DNA from: a virus
IMG/VR virus record: IMGVR_UViG_3300029985_000693
Coordinates: 61,961 to 125,960 of that record
Length of the DNA: 64,000 bases
Strand: one strand, 5' to 3'
Position 1 is the stretch's first letter, and each line of letters begins with the position of its first letter. Of this stretch, positions 9,878 through 62,026 are shown one piece after another. A model generated the notes under the pieces. That model saw only the letters and a list, made by a program, of their open reading frames with translations. It made no database searches and was not told the DNA's origin. The position numbers and the translations under genes were made by a program.

Positions 9878-12820
9878 TTAGGTCCTTACGACTTCGCAAG
9901 CACCACCACCACATGCGACAGAGCCAGAGAAATCGGTATTGTTGTCCTCTTCTTTTACTTCTCTTAAATCTATTGACTTGACTAAAGAACTTAAAGTATT
10001 AAATGTATCTTCCGTGCAATCCTCAAAAGGCATTTGAACATAAGAAGAATTGTCGTAAGGAAGTAGGGAGATGCCAGCGTAATGATTACGATTATCCCAC
10101 ATATACTTACATACACCATCCCACTCTTCTTCCTTAACAGATACCGTACACGATACGTTGTGTTTATCAACTCCAGACACATGTCCTGCTGCCACCCAAT
10201 ACTTATTGTAAGCAATTGCTCGTTCCAGCAAATCCAGAGCAGACTCTTTCTCCCTTACAATAGCGTTACTTGGAGACATTTGAGGTATAGTAACTACGGT
10301 AGTATTTACCTCATTTTTTGCATCTTCACAAAGATCAGGAATAACCATTTGTAAATATTTTGTTAGAGCGTCGTCCTTTACCATCCTGATCCTGCGTAGG
10401 TAATAGGGTGAGTGGCGTGCATGGATTCCACTAGAACTACCCACAACGCAAGAACTAGAACCCTCCGGCTTGATTGTGGTGGTCCTGGCGGCTGGACGTA
10501 TACCAATAGCCTTGGCAATAGATTGATTGGTCTCCAACACCAGCTTGGCTCCTTCTTCTAGCCATTCATTTGTTACTATTCCATTGGCATCAGCAACTCC
10601 TGTTAATGAAACACCAATTAAGGCTTCATAATCTGTAATCTGCTTCCAAGCTTGACGTAGGTATGGGAAATCAGTATATGAAGCTTGCAATGTTCCAATA
10701 ATAGAAGCTGCCTTAACCCTATTAAGAAAATCTTGTTTGGTTTTAATACCAGTTTGATTTACTGAGGTGAGATTGCAAAATTGACCCCCAAAGACTTGAC
10801 CTACATCGGGTATATTCATTGAAGCATTTAATGATATTTCATGGCACTGTCCAATATGAATACCTATGCCAATCGATAGTGAATGACTGCCATCTACAGT
10901 ACAACAGTAAACTTTTTCATCCACACCATCATCAACTATAGAGACTATTTGATTATATTTATTTTTCAATGAATAGGTCGTGGTTTTATTAGAAAAAGAA
11001 ATAAGTCTCTCGAATTTAACCTGTTTGGCCAAACAAATAGAAGAACTTTGACTGATAGTTAAACGATAAGCGTCTTTAGAATCATACGCTCCATATCCAT
11101 CGTTAAAGTCTACTTTACATGCTTTTTTGGTTAACTTCAACTTACTTCTAACACCAATAGTCTTAAGAAGTGTTTGAAAATCAGAAAGCCACTGCTTGTT
11201 TATTGAAGTGATTTGATACATAAATCCATTACGAGTGTCACTTGAGGTTCCATCTGAATCCATGACTCCTGCGATAAAATCTAATTTAGACTGAAGATCC
11301 CAGACGAATACTTCTTTAGGTAGGGAGTGTTTGTATATAGTTGCCCAGTTTATAAGATCTTCTCGTCTTGGAGAAAGTCCCCTCATCCTCTTTCTGTTTT
11401 CACCAGAAGCAACAAAGTCTAAAGTGGAGACCTCATTATTTGTTTTGTCAGTATTGATGCAATCCAGCTCATTTGCTGATTTTAACAAGCGATCCTCACA
11501 TGCATACTTGGTATCATAAAGGTACAAAAGTGGTATAATACCATTACTCGCAGATCCGTCTCCAACTAGGAAACCTTTTAAATAGGCGGCTCTGGTTTTA
11601 ACATTTCCGTTATTTAAAATAACCGATGGCCATAACTTATTGCCAACAACTAAATCTTTAGCCTCTAAACGATCGCCGTTTTCCAATATAAAAGAGTGAT
11701 ATGGAGTTGTACGAACAATTGAACCATCTTGTAGTTCAATCTTCAACATCTTTTGGTTTTCTCCAGTTACGCGGAAGTTATCAACTGACTGCCATTCGAA
11801 ACCATTCCAGATATCTACTGTTTTACCTACCAAATCCTCAACCGGAAATGTTCCCTGTTTGGTAACAATAAGAGTACCAGCACCAAAACATGGATTAAAT
11901 CCAGTAACCAACGGATTACCAGACCACGAGAATCCAGGTTCACCAGAACCTGATTTACGACAAATATCAAATATATGGTAAAACTCATCCTTGGTAACTT
12001 CACCTCTAGGAAGGACGGCGCTGTTATTTGCACGGGCGCGATATGGGTGTTTCTCCCACCAGTTACCTGATTTAGACTTAAGCATCTCTTCATCGTCACG
12101 ACTGAATAAACAAATTAACGCGGCGCGTCTAATTCCCCCAGCAAGAACACAATCAGATCCAATACAAATAATATCGTGTACCTCTATTGGTTTAAGTTTA
12201 CGACCAACAGCCGCTTTGAGTCTTATTTCAATTTCCTTCAAGGCATGCTTGAGTGGCTCTGGACCAGGAGCCTTTGCACCCGTAGTGACAAGAGGACTAC
12301 CTTTTGCGCGAATCATACTAAAATCAAACTGAGGTTTTACTTTACGATAAAAGTAAGCATCCATCAAAGCATCAAGGGCCTGAGCCCATCCCTCTATTGA
12401 GTCGTGAACTGTAAAATATCCCTCATCCCGAGGAAGTTGGATTGTTGGTAGTTTAACTACATGTTCCTTTTGAACACTATATCCCACCCCAGTCCCAGAA
12501 AGCAGACAAAATAGAATTTCACCAAAAACTCTAGTATCATCTATGGCGGTAAAAGCACAATTAAACAGACGGAGGTTGTTCTTAAGTACACCTTGTCCCC
12601 CAAACTGCATCCCTCTCATAGACGTTAAGCACTCTTTGTCCAAAACAAATTCGAAGGCATTCATTATCTTCTTTGATAGTTTTGGGAACCTGTCCAAATG
12701 CATAACCATTGAACGATTAACAGTTTCCTCCCAAGTCTCTCTACGGGAAAGATGAGATAAATGCTTGGCGTATGTACGAAATGATACTATCTGGGATAGA
12801 AGTGCAGATGAATTGTCCAT
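9878..12820 (-). CDS. adenosylcobalamin-dependent (class II) ribonucleotide reductase, intein-containing
   Basis: It reduces ribonucleotides to deoxyribonucleotides for phage DNA synthesis. The 980-residue precursor contains a 348-residue intein (residues 311-658); the spliced enzyme is 632 residues. Exteins show SGTGVGYSVQ, the thiyl-radical motif NPC/HEIS split exactly by the intein, FCNL, and a C-terminal CGGGAC redox pair as in Lactobacillus leichmannii reductase. A monomeric class II enzyme needs no radical subunit, and no NrdB gene is seen here. The promoter at 12932-12960 drives tRNA-Trp and this gene; AAGGA precedes the ATG. Downstream genes are tightly packed. The class II assignment rests on similarity to the L. 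leichmannii type and is fairly firm. Confidence 0.92.
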   Translation of the reverse strand: MDNSSALLSQIVSFRTYAKHLSHLSRRETWEETVNRSMVMHLDRFPKLSKKIMNAFEFVLDKECLTSMRGMQFGGQGVLKNNLRLFNCAFTAIDDTRVFGEILFCLLSGTGVGYSVQKEHVVKLPTIQLPRDEGYFTVHDSIEGWAQALDALMDAYFYRKVKPQFDFSMIRAKGSPLVTTGAKAPGPEPLKHALKEIEIRLKAAVGRKLKPIEVHDIICIGSDCVLAGGIRRAALICLFSRDDEEMLKSKSGNWWEKHPYRARANNSAVLPRGEVTKDEFYHIFDICRKSGSGEPGFSWSGNPLVTGFNPCFGAGTLIVTKQGTFPVEDLVGKTVDIWNGFEWQSVDNFRVTGENQKMLKIELQDGSIVRTTPYHSFILENGDRLEAKDLVVGNKLWPSVILNNGNVKTRAAYLKGFLVGDGSASNGIIPLLYLYDTKYACEDRLLKSANELDCINTDKTNNEVSTLDFVASGENRKRMRGLSPRREDLINWATIYKHSLPKEVFVWDLQSKLDFIAGVMDSDGTSSDTRNGFMYQITSINKQWLSDFQTLLKTIGVRSKLKLTKKACKVDFNDGYGAYDSKDAYRLTISQSSSICLAKQVKFERLISFSNKTTTYSLKNKYNQIVSIVDDGVDEKVYCCTVDGSHSLSIGIGIHIGQCHEISLNASMNIPDVGQVFGGQFCNLTSVNQTGIKTKQDFLNRVKAASIIGTLQASYTDFPYLRQAWKQITDYEALIGVSLTGVADANGIVTNEWLEEGAKLVLETNQSIAKAIGIRPAARTTTIKPEGSSSCVVGSSSGIHARHSPYYLRRIRMVKDDALTKYLQMVIPDLCEDAKNEVNTTVVTIPQMSPSNAIVREKESALDLLERAIAYNKYWVAAGHVSGVDKHNVSCTVSVKEEEWDGVCKYMWDNRNHYAGISLLPYDNSSYVQMPFEDCTEDTFNTLSSLVKSIDLREVKEEDNNTDFSGSVACGGGACEVVRT
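10847..11890 (-). mobile_element. intein in ribonucleotide reductase with LAGLIDADG endonuclease
   Basis: It begins at Cys311 (CFGAGTLIVTKQGTFPVEDL, block A) and ends at Gln658 (GIGIHIGQ), followed by Cys659, the catalytic extein cysteine. Block B is TTPYHSFIL. Two LAGLIDADG-type motifs are present: LKGFLVGDGSA and FIAGVMDSDGT. The last residue is Gln instead of the usual Asn, with His two residues before it. Gln-ending inteins are known and can splice. Insertion in the codon-conserved NPC motif is typical of reductase inteins. Confidence 0.92.
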
Positions 12821-12834
12821 TTTTTCCTTGTAAT

Positions 12835-12910
12835 TGGCAGAGGGGGTTGGGATCGAACCAACTATTTACGCTTTTGGAGAGCGTCGTCTTACCGTTAAGA
12901 CTTCCCCTCT
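12835..12910 (-). tRNA. tRNA-Trp (CCA anticodon)
   Basis: Read leftwards, the gene folds as a full cloverleaf. The acceptor stem AGAGGGG/CCCCTCT is perfect. The D-stem is GTCT/AGAC. The anticodon stem is ACGCT/AGCGT with loop CTCCAAA (anticodon CCA). The T-stem is GTTGG/CCAAC with TTCGATC loop. The discriminator is G, and a 3' CCA is encoded at 12835-12837. It lies in the leader of the reductase transcript, 15 bp before its ATG. Confidence 0.95.
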
Positions 12911-16864: not shown

Positions 16865-18664
16865 TTAATCTTCTAAGGAAGTATTAGAAGACCGCTCGAA
16901 CGACAAAGCTTCCCTAGCCTCTTGGCGCTCTAGTTCTGCATCCCGATGATAAACTACACATCCCCCTAGGGTGCCTAACTGGCTGGCAATTGATAAACTA
17001 TTACGAACAGCCTCAAGCACAGCGGGAGTTGAATCAAGAAGACCAGCATCCTTAGCGTTTACCCATTCGTTAGCCATGCAATCATAAATACTGGCTGTTT
17101 TGCTTGTCTGATTGGAAGCATTACCAGTAAGAGTACGAATGTTAGCATCTACCTCTTCGTTATTTAGACCAATATTTGAATAAAGCCTACGAATAGGTTC
17201 TAGAAGGCTGGGAACCAGGATTTTATTAACTATATCCTTGTCTTGGTCATTTAGGTCTTTGATTTTAGGTAACTCAGTAGTGATTTTAGCTAAGGTCCAA
17301 CCACCCGCAGGAAGGCAACCATGAGAAAGAGCGCCCTGTACGGCCCTTACCGCATCTTCAGCCCTATCCTTCTTTTCACGGATCTCTCCACTAGAAGAAC
17401 CGGACACAATTAGACGAGCTATACCCCCTGTTATCTTGCCAATACGCTCCTCTATGATTGATTTGTCTAATTGAGACGAGGCTGACTTTGCTTGGGTTTT
17501 TAGTACATCCACCCTAGCTAAAACTAGCTCCTCATCACACTTACCAATAATAGTAGACTTGTTGCGATACATTTCAAACATAGAAACGTCGCCTCCACCA
17601 AAGATACATTCATCGAATTCTTCTATTTCTTGTTCTGGAAGCAATCCAGGTAGTGGTTCAGAAATAGGATTAAATACAACCGCTCCGGTAATTGCAGATA
17701 GGTCTTCCAGGAAATCTAATTGACCATTAGGCATTTGGCTTAGGGGAGCCACAACCGGTACGATCTTAAGACCGTTAGGAGCCTTGAAATTGGTAGCTAG
17801 GTTAGCTATTACGTTTTCAGAAAAACCAGTGGCAACCATCACTACGTTTGGTGATTTATTGTGTATTTGCCATTTATGTTCAAGTATTTGAGCCAGACCA
17901 ACAATTGACTGGATATCGTTAATTACACCAAAATACAGTACGAAAAAGGGACGTTCTAGCAAAACACGTTGATTTGTAGAGTCGTTTATGTATTCATGAT
18001 AGAATTTACCCATTGTATCCTCATAGCCACGAGGAATGGGAAATCCTTCTATTTTTTCTACTTTATACTCTGATTCACCGGAGATCTCAGAAATGGTCAC
18101 ATTACCATCGTCTCCTACAAGCTCGAAACACTTAATAACAGCATCGGCTAATTCTGAATCACCGTTAGCAGAAACCTTAGCAATGGAGTATTGGGTATCC
18201 TTGGCTACCTTGAAGGCTTGTTTCCTGACCAATGGTTCGATAGAGGTCTTAAATAGCCTCTCTAGGGTCCTAACAGCCTTCTGGGGACTGACCTTTGGGT
18301 TTTTGATACAGAACTCTTGTACGTTACGAACGATGCTCTCAGAGAGGATGGCGCAGGTAGTTGTACCATCACCAGCGTCATGCGCGGTTTTGGCAGCACC
18401 ATCTCTAGCCGCTTCCATAATAGCATGCTGGGTGGGATTTGAGAATCCAAGGCTTTTAAAGACAGTAACACCGTCTTTTGTTATAATGTTGGGCATGCCA
18501 ATTTCTTGACGCTCAATAATTACGACCTTACCGCCAGGACCAAGGGTTGAACCTACTATTTCAGAAATAGTAGCCATGGTATTTAATACCATTTGGTTCA
18601 AACCGTTGCGTACAGTTGTAACAGACTTAGGGGGAGACTTTACTTTAGAATATTGGGTAGCCAT
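16865..18664 (-). CDS. groEL: GroEL-type chaperonin (Cpn60)
   Basis: 599 residues, slightly longer than GroEL (about 548). Group I chaperonin landmarks: STLGPGGKVVII, ITKDGVTVFKSL, the ATP-binding HDAGDGTTT, ERIGKITGGIARL, and AGGWTLAKI near the C-terminal equatorial domain. It lacks the GGM-rich C-terminal tail and ends SFERSSNTSLED. It probably folds phage head proteins. It has an ideal promoter at 18676-18704 and starts the operon groEL-fmdB-sbcC-14014-13588-ruvC. A possible GroES partner is at 25257-25652. Confidence 0.95.
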   Translation of the reverse strand: MATQYSKVKSPPKSVTTVRNGLNQMVLNTMATISEIVGSTLGPGGKVVIIERQEIGMPNIITKDGVTVFKSLGFSNPTQHAIMEAARDGAAKTAHDAGDGTTTCAILSESIVRNVQEFCIKNPKVSPQKAVRTLERLFKTSIEPLVRKQAFKVAKDTQYSIAKVSANGDSELADAVIKCFELVGDDGNVTISEISGESEYKVEKIEGFPIPRGYEDTMGKFYHEYINDSTNQRVLLERPFFVLYFGVINDIQSIVGLAQILEHKWQIHNKSPNVVMVATGFSENVIANLATNFKAPNGLKIVPVVAPLSQMPNGQLDFLEDLSAITGAVVFNPISEPLPGLLPEQEIEEFDECIFGGGDVSMFEMYRNKSTIIGKCDEELVLARVDVLKTQAKSASSQLDKSIIEERIGKITGGIARLIVSGSSSGEIREKKDRAEDAVRAVQGALSHGCLPAGGWTLAKITTELPKIKDLNDQDKDIVNKILVPSLLEPIRRLYSNIGLNNEEVDANIRTLTGNASNQTSKTASIYDCMANEWVNAKDAGLLDSTPAVLEAVRNSLSIASQLGTLGGCVVYHRDAELERQEAREALSFERSSNTSLED

Positions 18665-19861: not shown

Positions 19862-19937
19862 TGGCTGTGGAGGATGGGGTTGAACCATCGACATTCGGAT
19901 TAACAGTCCGACGCTCTGCCAACTGAGCTACTCCACA
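19862..19937 (-). tRNA. tRNA-Asn (GTT anticodon)
   Basis: Read leftwards it forms a complete cloverleaf. Acceptor TGTGGAG/CTCCACA, D-arm with AGCTCAGTTGGCAGAGC, anticodon loop CTGTTAA (anticodon GTT), T-arm with GGTTCAACCCC, discriminator G and encoded CCA (19862-19864). It lies upstream of the AAA ATPase gene. Confidence 0.95.
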
Positions 19938-22987: not shown

Positions 22988-25255
22988 ATGGCTTCATCTC
23001 AAGACCAGCATTTTGCTAACTTTCAAAAGATACTATCCTCCAAGATAGTTGCCTATGGAGAGCACCAAGGCTCTGAAAAGGACTTTATTAAGTCTCAAAA
23101 GAAGCAAGTTCTTAAGCTTTCAAAGCTGGAAGAGATGTTTCGTAAGGAACTATTACGAACTCCTCATGGTTTGCAGGTCTACATGGAATTTATCAACTTC
23201 ATTAGGGATGACCGAAAGAATATATTAGATGCCAGACCTTACTTTCGTATAAGACAAGACGTGTTCACCAAGAAGGTATCCCCAGCCTTACGAACCAGGG
23301 ATCCAAAGAACATACAAAAGTGTCATTTTAACTTTACCTTTATTTCATTTGCCATGAAATATGTAGTGTTATCACCCAATGACCCATTAACAGATATTTA
23401 CGAAGAACTTAAAGAAGTAAGGAATAAGCTAATAGAAGTGAACACACCTTTGGCAATAGCCAGAAGCAGCCAATTCTATCGTAAAACTAAAAGAAATCAC
23501 TTAACCCGCATGGACCTAATCCAGGTGGCGTTGGAAGGTTTGACTGCTGGAATAGACAAGTTTTGCGGTATTTACGACAATACCAAATACCGTCATATGC
23601 TTATAGGCAGAATTACGGGCAATCTAATTGAGGCTTATTGTATTGACGAAAACACAATATTAAACCCAATAGGCCAGCCTCCAAAGAAGATTTCAGAGTT
23701 TATTCCTGGTGATAAGATTTTAGGAATTGATGATTCTGGGGCTATTATAGAAACAGAAGTTGTAGCATTACACGATCATGGCGTCGTGGACGGCTATGAG
23801 GTTGAATTTGCCGATGGGTATAAGATAATATGCTCAAAAAATCACAAATTCCTTACAGAAGAAGGTCAAATCCCAATTCACGAAATAGTATCCAGAGGCT
23901 TGGGTGTGCTTTGTGAGCCCACCAATGAAAACTGGTGGTTGGACAACTCATTGCCAAATGGTTCTACCGTCCAAGAGAAAGATGTATGCTCACAAAAAAG
24001 TATGTCCAATCTGCAAAACACTGGTATACGAGACCCGGCGCTCGAATGGGCTGAAACTAACCTTACATCAAACTCTAACCGAAGGATGGAAAAGTCTGTG
24101 CGGTCAGACTTTTCGAACACGTCGATTGTTTTACAGTCACAGAAAAAACTGTCAGGTTTGTCAAAAAGCCATATTGGAGGGACTTGTCGCAAGGGCCAAG
24201 AATTGGCGGAACAAGAACATGGAACGTGTTCTAGAGCACATGCGGAATATTTCGATAGCATTTCAGGAGTCTTTACAAAAAAGACCAGACCTAAAATCGA
24301 AACACACAGAAAAGGTGAAACAAGCTTCCATGGAATGGAGGTCGAAGAATCCAGAGGAATTCATCCTCAACATGAAAAAAGCCTGGGCCGCTCAGAAACC
24401 ATCCAAGATGGAAGCGTGGTTACGGTCAAGCGGAACTATAACCTGGGACGATGTTCAAATCAGATGCGGAAAGGAAAGAAAGCAGGTGGACTTCGTTTCT
24501 CCGGATCACAAAATATGGGTAGAAGTGGATGGGAGCTTTCACTTCAAAGAAGTATCGACGAAGCCGTTGAAGCAGAGATTGCCAAAGATTCAGCAACGGG
24601 ATGCCATGTTGAAGACGGAGGCCCTATTGAGGAAAGATGTGACTTTGATCCGATTAGCGGCGGATTGTTTCTATGCGACTGGCATACTAAAAGAGCCTTG
24701 GAGGGTGTGGCTATCAAACATGCTCCTCTCACCTCGACCAGGGGTTTGGTGTTGCGGAAAGTTGTACGATTTAGCCCCATGGGCACAAGAAGGATGTACG
24801 ATCTTGAGGTCGCCCACCCCAAACATAACTTCCTTTTGCCTAACGGAATAGTTACTAGCAATTCCGAAACAATGGTTCATTTTTACCCAACAGACAAGAG
24901 AAAACTGTATAATGCAAACAAAGTAATGAATAAATGTCGTACAGAGGATTTTCAAGAAATATCTGCCAGGGTAAATGATTTAGCTAAAGAGCATTTATAC
25001 ACCACTACCCCAGAAGAAGTAACACATTTAGTGGCAGCTAGTAATCTAATTAATGCCGACTTCTCACCTCCCGCCCATTCCGGTGATAACCAAACCAAGA
25101 CTATACAAGATACGATGCAGTATGCCGATGTACCGGAAAAACAACCAGATATAGGTTATGAAGCACATGAATTGAGCGGCAAGTTAGCACAAGCAATACG
25201 CAAATTAACAGTATTTGAGCAAAAACTACTAAGACTCAAGGGAATGGAATTTTAA
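22988..25255 (+). CDS. phage sigma factor-like protein, intein-containing
   Basis: A 755-residue precursor with a 408-residue intein at residues 218-625; the spliced product is about 347 residues. Exteins carry a sigma-70 region 2-like pattern: NTPLAIARSSQFYRKTKRNH, MDLIQVALEGLTAGIDKF, then across the splice junction IEAY/SETMVHFYPTDKRK. This matches divergent sigma-like proteins of large phages, probably directing host RNA polymerase to a class of phage promoters. The C-terminus ends LTVFEQKLLRLKG. The intein sits in the most conserved stretch. The region-4 helix-turn-helix is not evident, so promoter recognition may be partial. Sigma identity is fairly but not fully certain. Confidence 0.75.
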   Translation: MASSQDQHFANFQKILSSKIVAYGEHQGSEKDFIKSQKKQVLKLSKLEEMFRKELLRTPHGLQVYMEFINFIRDDRKNILDARPYFRIRQDVFTKKVSPALRTRDPKNIQKCHFNFTFISFAMKYVVLSPNDPLTDIYEELKEVRNKLIEVNTPLAIARSSQFYRKTKRNHLTRMDLIQVALEGLTAGIDKFCGIYDNTKYRHMLIGRITGNLIEAYCIDENTILNPIGQPPKKISEFIPGDKILGIDDSGAIIETEVVALHDHGVVDGYEVEFADGYKIICSKNHKFLTEEGQIPIHEIVSRGLGVLCEPTNENWWLDNSLPNGSTVQEKDVCSQKSMSNLQNTGIRDPALEWAETNLTSNSNRRMEKSVRSDFSNTSIVLQSQKKLSGLSKSHIGGTCRKGQELAEQEHGTCSRAHAEYFDSISGVFTKKTRPKIETHRKGETSFHGMEVEESRGIHPQHEKSLGRSETIQDGSVVTVKRNYNLGRCSNQMRKGKKAGGLRFSGSQNMGRSGWELSLQRSIDEAVEAEIAKDSATGCHVEDGGPIEERCDFDPISGGLFLCDWHTKRALEGVAIKHAPLTSTRGLVLRKVVRFSPMGTRRMYDLEVAHPKHNFLLPNGIVTSNSETMVHFYPTDKRKLYNANKVMNKCRTEDFQEISARVNDLAKEHLYTTTPEEVTHLVAASNLINADFSPPAHSGDNQTKTIQDTMQYADVPEKQPDIGYEAHELSGKLAQAIRKLTVFEQKLLRLKGMEF
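23639..24862 (+). mobile_element. intein in sigma factor, with out-of-frame nested endonuclease
   Basis: The splicing domain is visible at both ends in the sigma frame. Cys218 starts block A (CIDENTILNPIG, EFIPGDKILGID). Block B is CSKNHKFLT. Blocks F/G are MYDLEVAHPKHNFLLPNGIV ending in Ser-Asn625, followed by Ser626. Between about residues 310 and 585 the sigma-frame sequence is hydrophilic, S/G/R/E-rich and shows no LAGLIDADG or HNH motif. In the same stretch the +1 frame encodes an EDxHD-type endonuclease. The sigma frame stays open throughout, so the precursor should be splicing-competent. Confidence 0.85.
23904..24851 (+). CDS. EDxHD/Vsr-like homing endonuclease, +1 frame, nested in the intein
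   Basis: It lies wholly inside the intein in the +1 frame; its TAG is 11 nt before the intein ends. The frame opens at 23889; possible starts are GTG 23904, ATG 23925, ATG 23958 or ATG 23985 (AAGAG just upstream), giving 289-315 residues. Domains: paired zinc-finger-like Cys/His (VCPICK, SHRKNCQVCQK), a NUMOD-like basic helical region (KHTEKVKQASMEWRSKNPEE, NMKKAWAAQKPSKMEAWL), and a nuclease core KQVDFVSPDHKIWVEVDGSF then H, RD in QQRDAMLKTEALL, VTLIRLAADCF. That is the E-x-D...H...D pattern of EDxHD homing endonucleases (Vsr fold). It probably cleaves intein-less sigma alleles. The tail overlapping intein blocks F/G is unlikely to be functional. Confidence 0.7.
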   Translation: MCFVSPPMKTGGWTTHCQMVLPSKRKMYAHKKVCPICKTLVYETRRSNGLKLTLHQTLTEGWKSLCGQTFRTRRLFYSHRKNCQVCQKAILEGLVARAKNWRNKNMERVLEHMRNISIAFQESLQKRPDLKSKHTEKVKQASMEWRSKNPEEFILNMKKAWAAQKPSKMEAWLRSSGTITWDDVQIRCGKERKQVDFVSPDHKIWVEVDGSFHFKEVSTKPLKQRLPKIQQRDAMLKTEALLRKDVTLIRLAADCFYATGILKEPWRVWLSNMLLSPRPGVWCCGKLYDLAPWAQEGCTILRSPTPNITSFCLTE

Positions 25256-37032: not shown

Positions 37033-38997
37033 TCATATCGTTTTCTTCCACAACCATCGGTCTTTACCGCAATCCCAAATACGGTTTAGGCCCATGATCT
37101 GTGTTGCCTCCGTCTCAGTCATTCCGTCTGGACATCCGATCTTTTCCTTGCGGTATTTACTTTTGTGCTTACGAAACGTGTCACTACCAGACTTGACATA
37201 AGAATAATCTGGTAGAGATGTATCTGTTAACACAAAATTTGCATTTTTATACATATTCCCTTGCGACCACCGTTTATCTGAAAAACTAACAATATCAGTT
37301 ACATTGTTATTTTTAACAAAGTTAGACATCAATCGATCGAATCCGCCTGTTACTGCATATCCTATTTTGACACAATATCTATTTAATTCCCAAAAACCCG
37401 GTACCGAATAACCCTTTCTTTCCGGAGAGGAGGGTGAAAATGTCATGGCTGCTATAATCTCCCCATCCACCTCTAATACATATGGATTCCTGACGATATC
37501 TATTGATTGTATGTGATTTTCTTTGATAAATTCGGACACCTTGGCCGGATCTCCCGGTTTGACTATTCCATCTCTGGCACCAATACGCTTTATGTCTTTA
37601 TGTTTTAATATGGCTTTAATATATCCTATAACTTGTTCTCTTTTTGTTAGCCACTCATCCGCAAATATGGTAATTAATCGTATACCTTTTGCTTCTGCTG
37701 ACTTTAATTTATCTAAATGCCTATTCTTTGCATTCGGCTTGGCGTCGCTGTGCCAATATAGTCCGCAGTATTCAATTGCTACATTTTGTTCTGGTATGTA
37801 AATATCTAATTCTTTCCCATTGTCAAGAACACTTCTTGTCTTTTGAACATTATAACCTAAATCTTGTAGTAATTTTGCTATGTTACGCTCTTCTCTACTT
37901 TGTTCACAACCACAAGACTGTGCCCGTTCATAGGCTATTTCCCATAGCACAGCGGTAAACAAAGATCCACAAAAACACCTGAGTTCCACTCTTTCTGACA
38001 TAGACGGAACGCGATCCGTATCTATGCGCTCCCCAACCAAAAGGAATTCTTTGTTTTTTGCTGACTGTCTGATGTCGCCCCAAGTGTATTTAGAGTCGCG
38101 CTGCATGTTGTTTTTGCGCGCTTCCTCGTCCAGTAGAATTTCACGTTTTACGCACTCCCTGGTTACGACTCCCTTGTCAATTCCAAAAAAGTCAGCAATT
38201 TCCTGACAGCTCTTTTTATCAACTAGTCGCATATTCGCTATAGCATCTAGGGTTGTCCTAGAACACGGAAGAAATACATGATCTTTTTGACTTTGACTTA
38301 GAGTTATCCCCTGTGTAGATAGGGACCATTTTATTTGTCCTAAACTATAACCGGTTTCTTTGGATATTTCTGGTATAGTTAATGGTTTATTTGTATCTCG
38401 TAGCAATCTAATAGCAGTATTAATTTCTTCTCGATTATCGTCAACCAAAATAGCACTTAATTGAGTTTTGTCTAACAATACACCCTCGTTACGACAAATA
38501 TATTCAACGGTATCTTCTGATTGACCAGTCAGCATCGCAATTTCATAATATGAAGGAGTGTTTTTTTGTTTTCTGTAATCTGTTATAATTTTTCTAAGCT
38601 CATCAGAGTAAATTCTGCGAACTTCGCTCTGTCCTTGTTTGCTTAGATAAAATCCATTGTCGCTACAAATGGTACGCACCTTGTTTTCGTGTAATCCCAA
38701 AATGGTAGCGATTGATTTTTCAGAGCAATTGGAGTCTTTTAACTGCTTGATTTTGTTTATTGTTTCTTGTGAAACTGGTGTGTAATCGTGGGTAAGTCTT
38801 CCTTTGTGTATGTTTTCTCTGCGTGCTTCCTTGCTTAATTTAGCTCCATTTCTAGTAGATAGTTTATTTACCTGAGAAACAGTCAATCCAAGCGTAACGG
38901 CTATTTCTTTGGCTGTTTTTCCTTCTTTTTTTTGTCGTATAATTTCTGATTTAATTTCTGGTGAAGCTCGATACCGTTGTCCTGTGCTCTGTGTCAT
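37033..38997 (-). CDS. large Vsr/EDxHD-type homing endonuclease with HTH repeats
   Basis: 654 residues. The N-terminal approximately 300 residues consist of repeated helix-turn-helix-like units (GKTAKEIAVTLGLTVSQVNK, CSEKSIATILGLHENKVRT, LTIPEISKETGYSLGQIKW, KSCQEIADFFGIDKGVV), presumably for DNA site binding. A Cys pair (RCFCG, SCGCEQS) may bind zinc. The nuclease core is ELDIYIPEQNVAIEYCGLYW then H, with KGIRLITIFADEW, as in Hef-like phage homing enzymes. The C-terminal part (LNRYCVKIGYAVTGGFDRLM, SFSDKRWSQGNMY) is the domain commonly attached to these proteins. It is a free-standing selfish gene between the thyX operon and the capsid gene. Confidence 0.82.
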   Translation of the reverse strand: MTQSTGQRYRASPEIKSEIIRQKKEGKTAKEIAVTLGLTVSQVNKLSTRNGAKLSKEARRENIHKGRLTHDYTPVSQETINKIKQLKDSNCSEKSIATILGLHENKVRTICSDNGFYLSKQGQSEVRRIYSDELRKIITDYRKQKNTPSYYEIAMLTGQSEDTVEYICRNEGVLLDKTQLSAILVDDNREEINTAIRLLRDTNKPLTIPEISKETGYSLGQIKWSLSTQGITLSQSQKDHVFLPCSRTTLDAIANMRLVDKKSCQEIADFFGIDKGVVTRECVKREILLDEEARKNNMQRDSKYTWGDIRQSAKNKEFLLVGERIDTDRVPSMSERVELRCFCGSLFTAVLWEIAYERAQSCGCEQSREERNIAKLLQDLGYNVQKTRSVLDNGKELDIYIPEQNVAIEYCGLYWHSDAKPNAKNRHLDKLKSAEAKGIRLITIFADEWLTKREQVIGYIKAILKHKDIKRIGARDGIVKPGDPAKVSEFIKENHIQSIDIVRNPYVLEVDGEIIAAMTFSPSSPERKGYSVPGFWELNRYCVKIGYAVTGGFDRLMSNFVKNNNVTDIVSFSDKRWSQGNMYKNANFVLTDTSLPDYSYVKSGSDTFRKHKSKYRKEKIGCPDGMTETEATQIMGLNRIWDCGKDRWLWKKTI

Positions 38998-61516: not shown

Positions 61517-62026
61517 ATGAAAACCTACACGCAAAAAGAACTTTCCGAAACCCTCCGTTTGCATAAACTCTGGTTAGAAGGTAAGACCGAAGGTGTACAG
61601 GCCGATCTGTACGATGCCGATCTGTCCGGGGCCGATCTGTCCGGGGCCAATTTGACCGGGGCTAATTTGACCGGGGCCAATCTGTCCGGGGCTAATTTGA
61701 CCGGGGCCAATCTGTCCGGGGCTATTCTGACCGGGGCCGACCTGACCGGGGCCAATCTGACCGGGGCCGACCTGACCGGGGCCAATCTGGAAGGGGCCAA
61801 ATTGACCGGGGCCAATCTGTCCAGGGCCAATCTGTCCAAGGCCAATCTGTCCAAGGCCGATCTTACCGGGGCCAATCTGAGCGGGGCCAACGGTTTCCCA
61901 GAAGAGGAAATTGCCAAGCGTCAAATTGTACCGAAGGAAGGGGAGTTTATTGGTTACAAAAAGCTTGGAAACGGTACGGTGGCGAAGCTTTTGATTCCGG
62001 CCGGGGCCAAGCGCATCGGGGGATGA
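61517..62026 (+). CDS. pentapeptide-repeat protein with start of DUF5758-like domain
   Basis: 169 residues. N-terminus [20 protein letters not shown] is shared with the gene at 63638. Pentapeptide repeats ([15 protein letters not shown]) span about 30-130. The end reads [27 protein letters not shown], the beginning of the DUF5758-type domain found behind pentapeptides. The domain continues in the next ORF in another frame, with ATGA overlap. Either coupled two-part product, programmed frameshift, or mutation. Confidence 0.8.

Follow-up and report, generated by a model that had tools for sequence, protein, structure and literature searches.

The window analysed here, a stretch of 64,000 nucleotides of viral DNA (positions 61,961 to 125,960 of IMG/VR record IMGVR_UViG_3300029985_000693), contains a sigma-factor-like phage gene whose frame carries a full intein. 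A second open reading frame (ORF), which lies in the +1 frame relative to the sigma frame, is nested inside this intein. The features of the locus are as follows.

22988–25255, plus strand: sigma-type gene with intein; frame open over 755 codons (755 amino acids)
22988–23638, plus strand: N-extein, phage sigma-factor-like gene (identity to Mx1; TIGR02937 and TIGR02980 sigma matches)
23639–24862, plus strand: whole intein, Cys218 to Asn625, complete and within the sigma-type frame
23639–23911, plus strand: N-terminal part of the intein splicing (Hint) domain with Cys1 and block B NHKFLT (PF14890; 2KEQ; related inteins L073, L075 and L076)
23893–23912, plus strand: putative ribosome-binding site of the nested nuclease gene (anti-Shine-Dalgarno duplex energy; equivalent sites elsewhere)
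23912–24742, plus strand: intein linker read in the sigma frame; open, without recognised domain, protein not conserved
23913–24851, plus strand: overprinted nuclease ORF in the +1 frame; open from 23889, stop codon 24849–24851, alternative GTG at 23904
23940–24164, plus strand: Cys/His-rich, probable zinc-finger DNA-binding part of the nuclease (near-invariant Cys/His columns)
24471–24659, plus strand: catalytic core of the nuclease, KQVDF..DHKIWVEVDGSFHF...QQRDAMLK...LIRL (phrog_559 and phrog_9084; profile-profile match; invariant residues)
24743–24862, plus strand: C-terminal part of the splicing domain with blocks F and G, ending in TSN (TIGR01443; related inteins)
24863–25255, plus strand: C-extein of the sigma-like gene, +1 residue Ser626 (joint compared with intein-free relatives)

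The assignment of a full intein to the sigma frame rests on splicing-domain matches and on an exact joint; splicing itself is inferred. The Pfam profile Intein_splicing (PF14890) covers residues 233–624 of the sigma frame with an E-value of 1.1e-6, a match that falls short of the curated cut-off of that family. TIGR01443 and TIGR01445 match the two intein ends, and the Npu DnaE mini-intein 2KEQ can be aligned to the splicing parts (E = 2.2e-8). The C-terminal splicing part is 66–73% identical to those of three related inteins. The sequence hallmarks of an intein are present, namely a nucleophile at position 1 (C1), the Hint blocks (block B NHKFLT, block F YDLEVAHPKHNFLLPNG), a C-terminal Asn at the end of TSN and a Ser at position +1. 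The penultimate residue of the intein is Ser, not His, and the same is found in Npu DnaE. Removal of Cys218 to Asn625 joins IEAY to SETMVHFYPTDKRK (the joint is also given as IEAY joined to SETMVHFYP), and this joint is colinear with 28 intein-free relatives, 27 of them metagenomic sigma relatives and the other from Myxococcus phage Mx1. None of these 28 sequences carries an insertion at the joint; the gene is interrupted exactly and empty alleles exist. Both exteins together show a mean identity of 41.5% to the putative sigma factor of phage Mx1, and few parts of the sigma-type protein are as well conserved as the 14 residues downstream of the joint. For the linker between the splicing parts, read in the sigma frame, no family match was obtained in Pfam, TIGR and PHROG profile searches.

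The +1 ORF lies wholly inside the intein. The nuclease body ends near 24722 and occupies the linker, and in its last 42 codons the ORF simply reads through the C-terminal splicing domain in the +1 frame. Profile searches of both frames gave intein matches in the sigma frame and homing-endonuclease matches in the +1 frame. The relatives of the +1 ORF are phage homing endonucleases (phrog_559, E = 1.5e-8), and phrog_9084, annotated as ‘homing endonuclease’, is matched as well. With an independent HMM of eight nuclease relatives, the +1 ORF was the top match in the six-frame translation of the window (E = 6.8e-10), and profile-profile comparison with 8 other phage and bacterial nucleases gave a probability of 93.3 (E = 2.8e-7). 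DUF559 and MTES_1575 were matched weakly. The motif D...E-x-D-G..H-F...R-D...K is intact in the window nuclease. In the 11 loci described below, D, E, D, G, H and F are invariant, the last D of the catalytic motif is kept in at least 90%, and the Cys/His columns C14, H27, C31 and H76 are almost invariant among the 11 aligned nucleases. A conserved catalytic D/E/D/H/D motif in a homing-endonuclease family, as would mark an EDxHD/Vsr-like nuclease, is present. Membership of the EDxHD family is inferred from the motif and the PHROG matches: in PDB searches, none of the solved EDxHD enzymes was matched by the nuclease profile at the sequence level. For the nuclease, AlphaFold gave only poor models (pLDDT 33 and 45, with 3 or 9 input sequences), and Foldseek with the low-confidence model gave no significant match. 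In 25 related phage records no nuclease relative was found except in the identical contig, and the only matches of the window nuclease to named phages were weak ones to three Bacillus phages. Charge-hydropathy analysis did not separate linker and nuclease, and the codon-usage likelihood, computed on the window alone, made no call on which frame came first.

The double-open frame is real and not a product of chance, because +1 open stretches reach at most 95 codons in 20 other window genes compared with 320 in the sigma-type gene, and because stop-free shuffles were never obtained. If the sigma protein is kept and synonymous codons are shuffled, 8.0 stops are expected in the +1 frame; keeping the nuclease protein, 12.2 stops are expected in the sigma frame. 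In 20,000 shuffles of either kind, the other frame was never free of stops. A second IMG/VR record matches the window without a difference over its full 51,612 bases; as it may stem from the same assembly, it was left out of the count of independent ones. The following claims of a prior sequence-only reading of the locus held: a complete intein from Cys218 to Asn625 in the sigma frame, a nuclease ORF inside it in the +1 frame, open from 23889 and with its stop at 24851, a sigma-frame linker free of motifs, and the improbability of two long open frames by chance. Its claim of an EDxHD/Vsr core rests on the motif and the PHROG matches alone, as no solved EDxHD enzyme was matched.

The first searches of viral contigs with proteins of the window returned only the identical contig. 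Related loci were found by using a Hint N-domain aligned to the Salmonella phage S16 intein, followed by two scans with nuclease alignments. These searches gave 14 records representing 11 distinct loci, the window included, with GC contents of 0.39–0.61. In all 11 loci, the nuclease lies in the +1 frame inside an intein that is open from its first residue to Asn-Ser. Three host genes are occupied:

Sigma gene: the window and L073/L074, in which the intein sits at the same site of a divergent sigma gene
DNA polymerase III alpha (DnaE): L075, L138, L139, L148, L151, L152 and L153/L155
A third gene: L137/L141 and L145

No in-frame or free-standing member of the nuclease clade was found in those viral-contig scans, and a long +1 or +2 ORF was present in 0 of 57 other Hint loci scanned, most of which are split inteins with a stop soon after the N-half. 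Since 11 distinct loci share the +1 arrangement, sequencing error is not a viable explanation, and the arrangement represents a real, apparently undescribed family. The nuclease tree groups by host gene, with the sigma and third-gene members forming one well-supported set (100/98) beside the DnaE members; midpoint rooting of this tree therefore suggests an origin in DnaE.

The DnaE intein L076 (2998 onward) is related to the family, but its linker is short and contains no nuclease, which it has probably lost. Contig 3300037520_002447 carries two family inteins, L151 (3718–4983) in DnaE and L137 (4730–5941) in another gene. The DnaE inteins L139, L152 and L153 begin with Thr instead of Cys or Ser, which is unusual for splicing. 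In L148 (3893–5041), the nuclease frame continues beyond the end of the intein into the C-extein before it reaches a stop.

Substitution patterns show that the nuclease protein is under purifying selection and that the host frame is merely kept open through the linker, while in the splicing domain selection acts on the host frame. Among the 55 pairs of the 11 loci, the nuclease is on average 37% identical compared with 20% for the host-frame linker (range 9–38%), and nuclease identity is the higher of the two in every pair. Divergence in the linker follows the order second < first < third position of nuclease codons in 54 of 55 pairs, and in each of the 55 variability is greatest at the third nuclease positions, which are the first positions of host codons. 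For the flanking Hint domain, it is the host codons that follow this order, in 55/55 pairs. NG86 pN/pS values for 15 pairs of six loci are 0.38–0.63 in the nuclease frame and 1.05–1.36 in the host-frame linker, where the ratio exceeds 1 in all 15 pairs; as synonymous sites are saturated at these distances, the values are to be read qualitatively. Nuclease codons ending in T are absent where they would create a host stop (0 of 981), compared with 607 of 2500 elsewhere. This count restates the openness of the host frame, and its value lies in showing that openness is not explained by base composition.

Regarding expression of the nuclease, internal initiation appears to be the likeliest route, as inferred from a conserved start and a Shine-Dalgarno-like site. 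In 8 of 11 loci (the window with GTG 23913, L073, L075, L137, L138, L139, L145 and L148), an ATG or GTG in the same alignment column (42/43) is accompanied by such a site. The anti-Shine-Dalgarno duplex energy is -7.2 kcal/mol at the window site, a value reached by 1.7% of sampled window positions, and -7.3 to -10.6 kcal/mol at the 7 others; all eight sites rank within the best 0–3% of sampled positions of the same locus. L153 has a strong Shine-Dalgarno-like site in another alignment column, the internal start of L151 is weak and that of L152 is not clear-cut. An internal start had previously been placed at 23904–23985; this is corrected here to the conserved GTG at 23913, rather than 23904 or 23982. 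RNA folding around the start was unremarkable (z -0.4 to -1.1), and promoter-like and TATAAATA sites occurred at chance level only.

Indications of mobility come from comparisons between loci. Of 1065 extein positions, 25 are different between L073 and L074, compared with 1 of 1218 intein positions (P = 6.5e-8). A recent spread of this intein seems likely, with only indirect evidence for homing, and double coding may contribute to the low divergence of the intein. Between the window and L073, the exteins are 32%, the Hint domains 60% and the nucleases 50% identical. L139 and L151 have DnaE exteins that are 93% identical, nucleases that are 56% identical and inteins at the same site with 56–65% identity; this pattern may point to the replacement of one intein allele by another.

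Taken together, our data indicate that the locus is very likely (probability roughly 0.88) a mobile intein with a separately encoded homing endonuclease, the gene of which lies in the +1 frame of the linker and has a translation start of its own. Splicing, expression of the nuclease and DNA cleavage are inferences. The sigma precursor would be translated through the entire insertion, and the splicing halves at both ends would excise the intein. A zinc-finger/Vsr-like nuclease would also be made from the same mRNA, by initiation at the internal GTG 23913 with a dedicated ribosome-binding site. As inferred from the nuclease family and the patchy distribution, this nuclease would cut intein-free alleles at the insertion site, and the element would be copied in by repair. 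As the substitution patterns show, what is selected in the linker is the nuclease protein and in the splicing domain the host frame, and the host frame of the linker only has to remain free of stops.

Four other explanations were considered. A +1 ribosomal frameshift could yield a nuclease fused to the N-extein and the N-terminal splicing part. The opening of the +1 frame at 23889, upstream of the conserved start, and the +1 relation in every locus would fit this explanation. However, a start in the same column with a Shine-Dalgarno-like site in 8/11 loci would not be needed for frameshifting, which makes it unlikely, although slippery sites were not systematically searched. It is still less probable that only the intein matters now, as a mini-intein whose long linker is passive and in which nothing but inertia keeps the nuclease frame open. 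The short linker of L076 shows that loss of the nuclease occurs, but the codon-position pattern in 54/55 pairs, the nuclease pN/pS of 0.38–0.63, the invariant motif residues and the recent spread inferred for the L073/L074 intein speak against inertia. A group I intron or other RNA-spliced element that carries the nuclease inside the intein gene can be practically ruled out. The nearest nuclease relatives, L037 and L038, do sit between two terminase gene pieces, like intron-encoded nucleases, but an Rfam search at E<=1 found no intron family, and in 11 loci the linker has no stop in the host frame, a feature for which an RNA-spliced element would have no need. Finally, a remnant of a normal intein whose in-frame nuclease was displaced by two compensating indels, real or sequencing errors, which was the alternative offered by the sequence-only reading, would account for the conserved nuclease homology and the intact intein ends but is already contradicted and as good as excluded, as ten further distinct loci show the same +1 nesting, the eleven together spanning GC contents of 0.39–0.61, a recent frame shift should leave about 12 host-frame stops where 0 are seen, purifying selection still acts on the nuclease frame between loci, and the scans revealed no in-frame member.

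The nested-nuclease reading can be compared with several known systems. Inteins are described as fused splicing and endonuclease proteins, or as split halves with a free-standing nuclease. The corresponding claim of the earlier reading, that the endonuclease of known inteins is in frame or lies beside split inteins, has to be qualified, since out-of-frame endonucleases are known in unspliced phage insertions. The ShiLan domain and the Pacc40 insertion, which are found in methylase genes of phages, carry an HNH endonuclease that is out of frame (Arsenault et al. 2025, PMC11855218), and another phage announcement uses the same out-of-frame term (PMC12613952). They share with the present family a phage insertion that is open in the host frame, a homing endonuclease in another frame with an internal start (GTG in ShiLan) and a patchy distribution. 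ShiLan has no splicing domain and is thought to remain in the protein (PMC11855218), whereas the family described here has a complete intein, a Vsr/EDxHD-like nuclease with the motif E-x-D-G..H instead of HNH, and a conserved start accompanied by a Shine-Dalgarno-like site, and it occupies three host genes as a single family. Fractured genes are reported to contain split inteins, the two halves of which are separated by a free-standing endonuclease (Dassa et al. 2009); we saw such arrangements in phage S16 UvsW, PM2, UFV01 and PspYZU05. There too, the endonuclease ORF lies between splicing halves, has its own start and is in another frame; in phage S16 it overlaps the C-half of the intein by 65 bases. 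In contrast, the intein frame here is unsplit and forms one continuous ORF through the nuclease in 11/11 loci. Canonical large inteins with in-frame LAGLIDADG or HNH endonucleases likewise hold the endonuclease between block B and block F, but here the nuclease is in the +1 frame and would be a separate polypeptide. Npu and other cyanobacterial DnaE inteins provide the closest solved splicing domain, with the same Ser-Asn end, and most members of our family are also in DnaE; the cyanobacterial inteins differ in being split and without a nuclease. I-Bth0305I and EDxHD homing endonucleases resemble our nuclease in the motif order D...E-x-D-G..H-F...D, a Cys/His DNA-binding part and the phage homing context, yet it could not be matched to the solved enzyme by sequence.

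The literature searched contained no description of an overprinted nuclease within an intact intein. A preprint on actinobacteriophage inteins with non-canonical architecture (Gosselin et al. 2025, 10.1101/2025.01.02.630785) lay outside that search and may hold a similar design. Three family nucleases had no relatives among named phages, which bears on a possible overlap with this preprint, and one family nuclease had none among plasmids.

On a bolder reading, which we regard as likely, the loci belong to a long-lived family of mobile inteins with an overprinted +1 endonuclease and its own conserved ribosome-binding site. The family probably has its origin in DNA polymerase III alpha, from where it would have reached sigma and further phage genes with a constant frame relation, so that splicing and homing are two proteins of one DNA. 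Such a family represents a third solution, kept over large sequence distances, in which the DNA is shared and the proteins are separate. It is also a plausible step between fused inteins and fractured genes, because a single stop codon in the linker, which is unconstrained, would be enough to divide the intein and would leave the nuclease intact. As one frame is constrained at the protein level and the other only kept open, the evolution of long overlapping genes becomes testable. Genome annotation pipelines would miss nucleases of this kind.

Some other features of the window deserve mention. On the minus strand, a class II ribonucleotide reductase gene (9878–12820) carries a canonical intein with an in-frame LAGLIDADG endonuclease; both intein designs are found in the same phage. 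Also on the minus strand, a 654-residue protein (37033–38997) is similar in one region to the same Vsr-like nuclease profile (E = 1.9e-7), a phage-encoded chaperonin of the Cpn60/TCP-1 type lies at 16865–18664 (E = 1.3e-38), and tRNA genes for tRNA-Trp and tRNA-Asn are located at 12835–12910 and 19862–19937.
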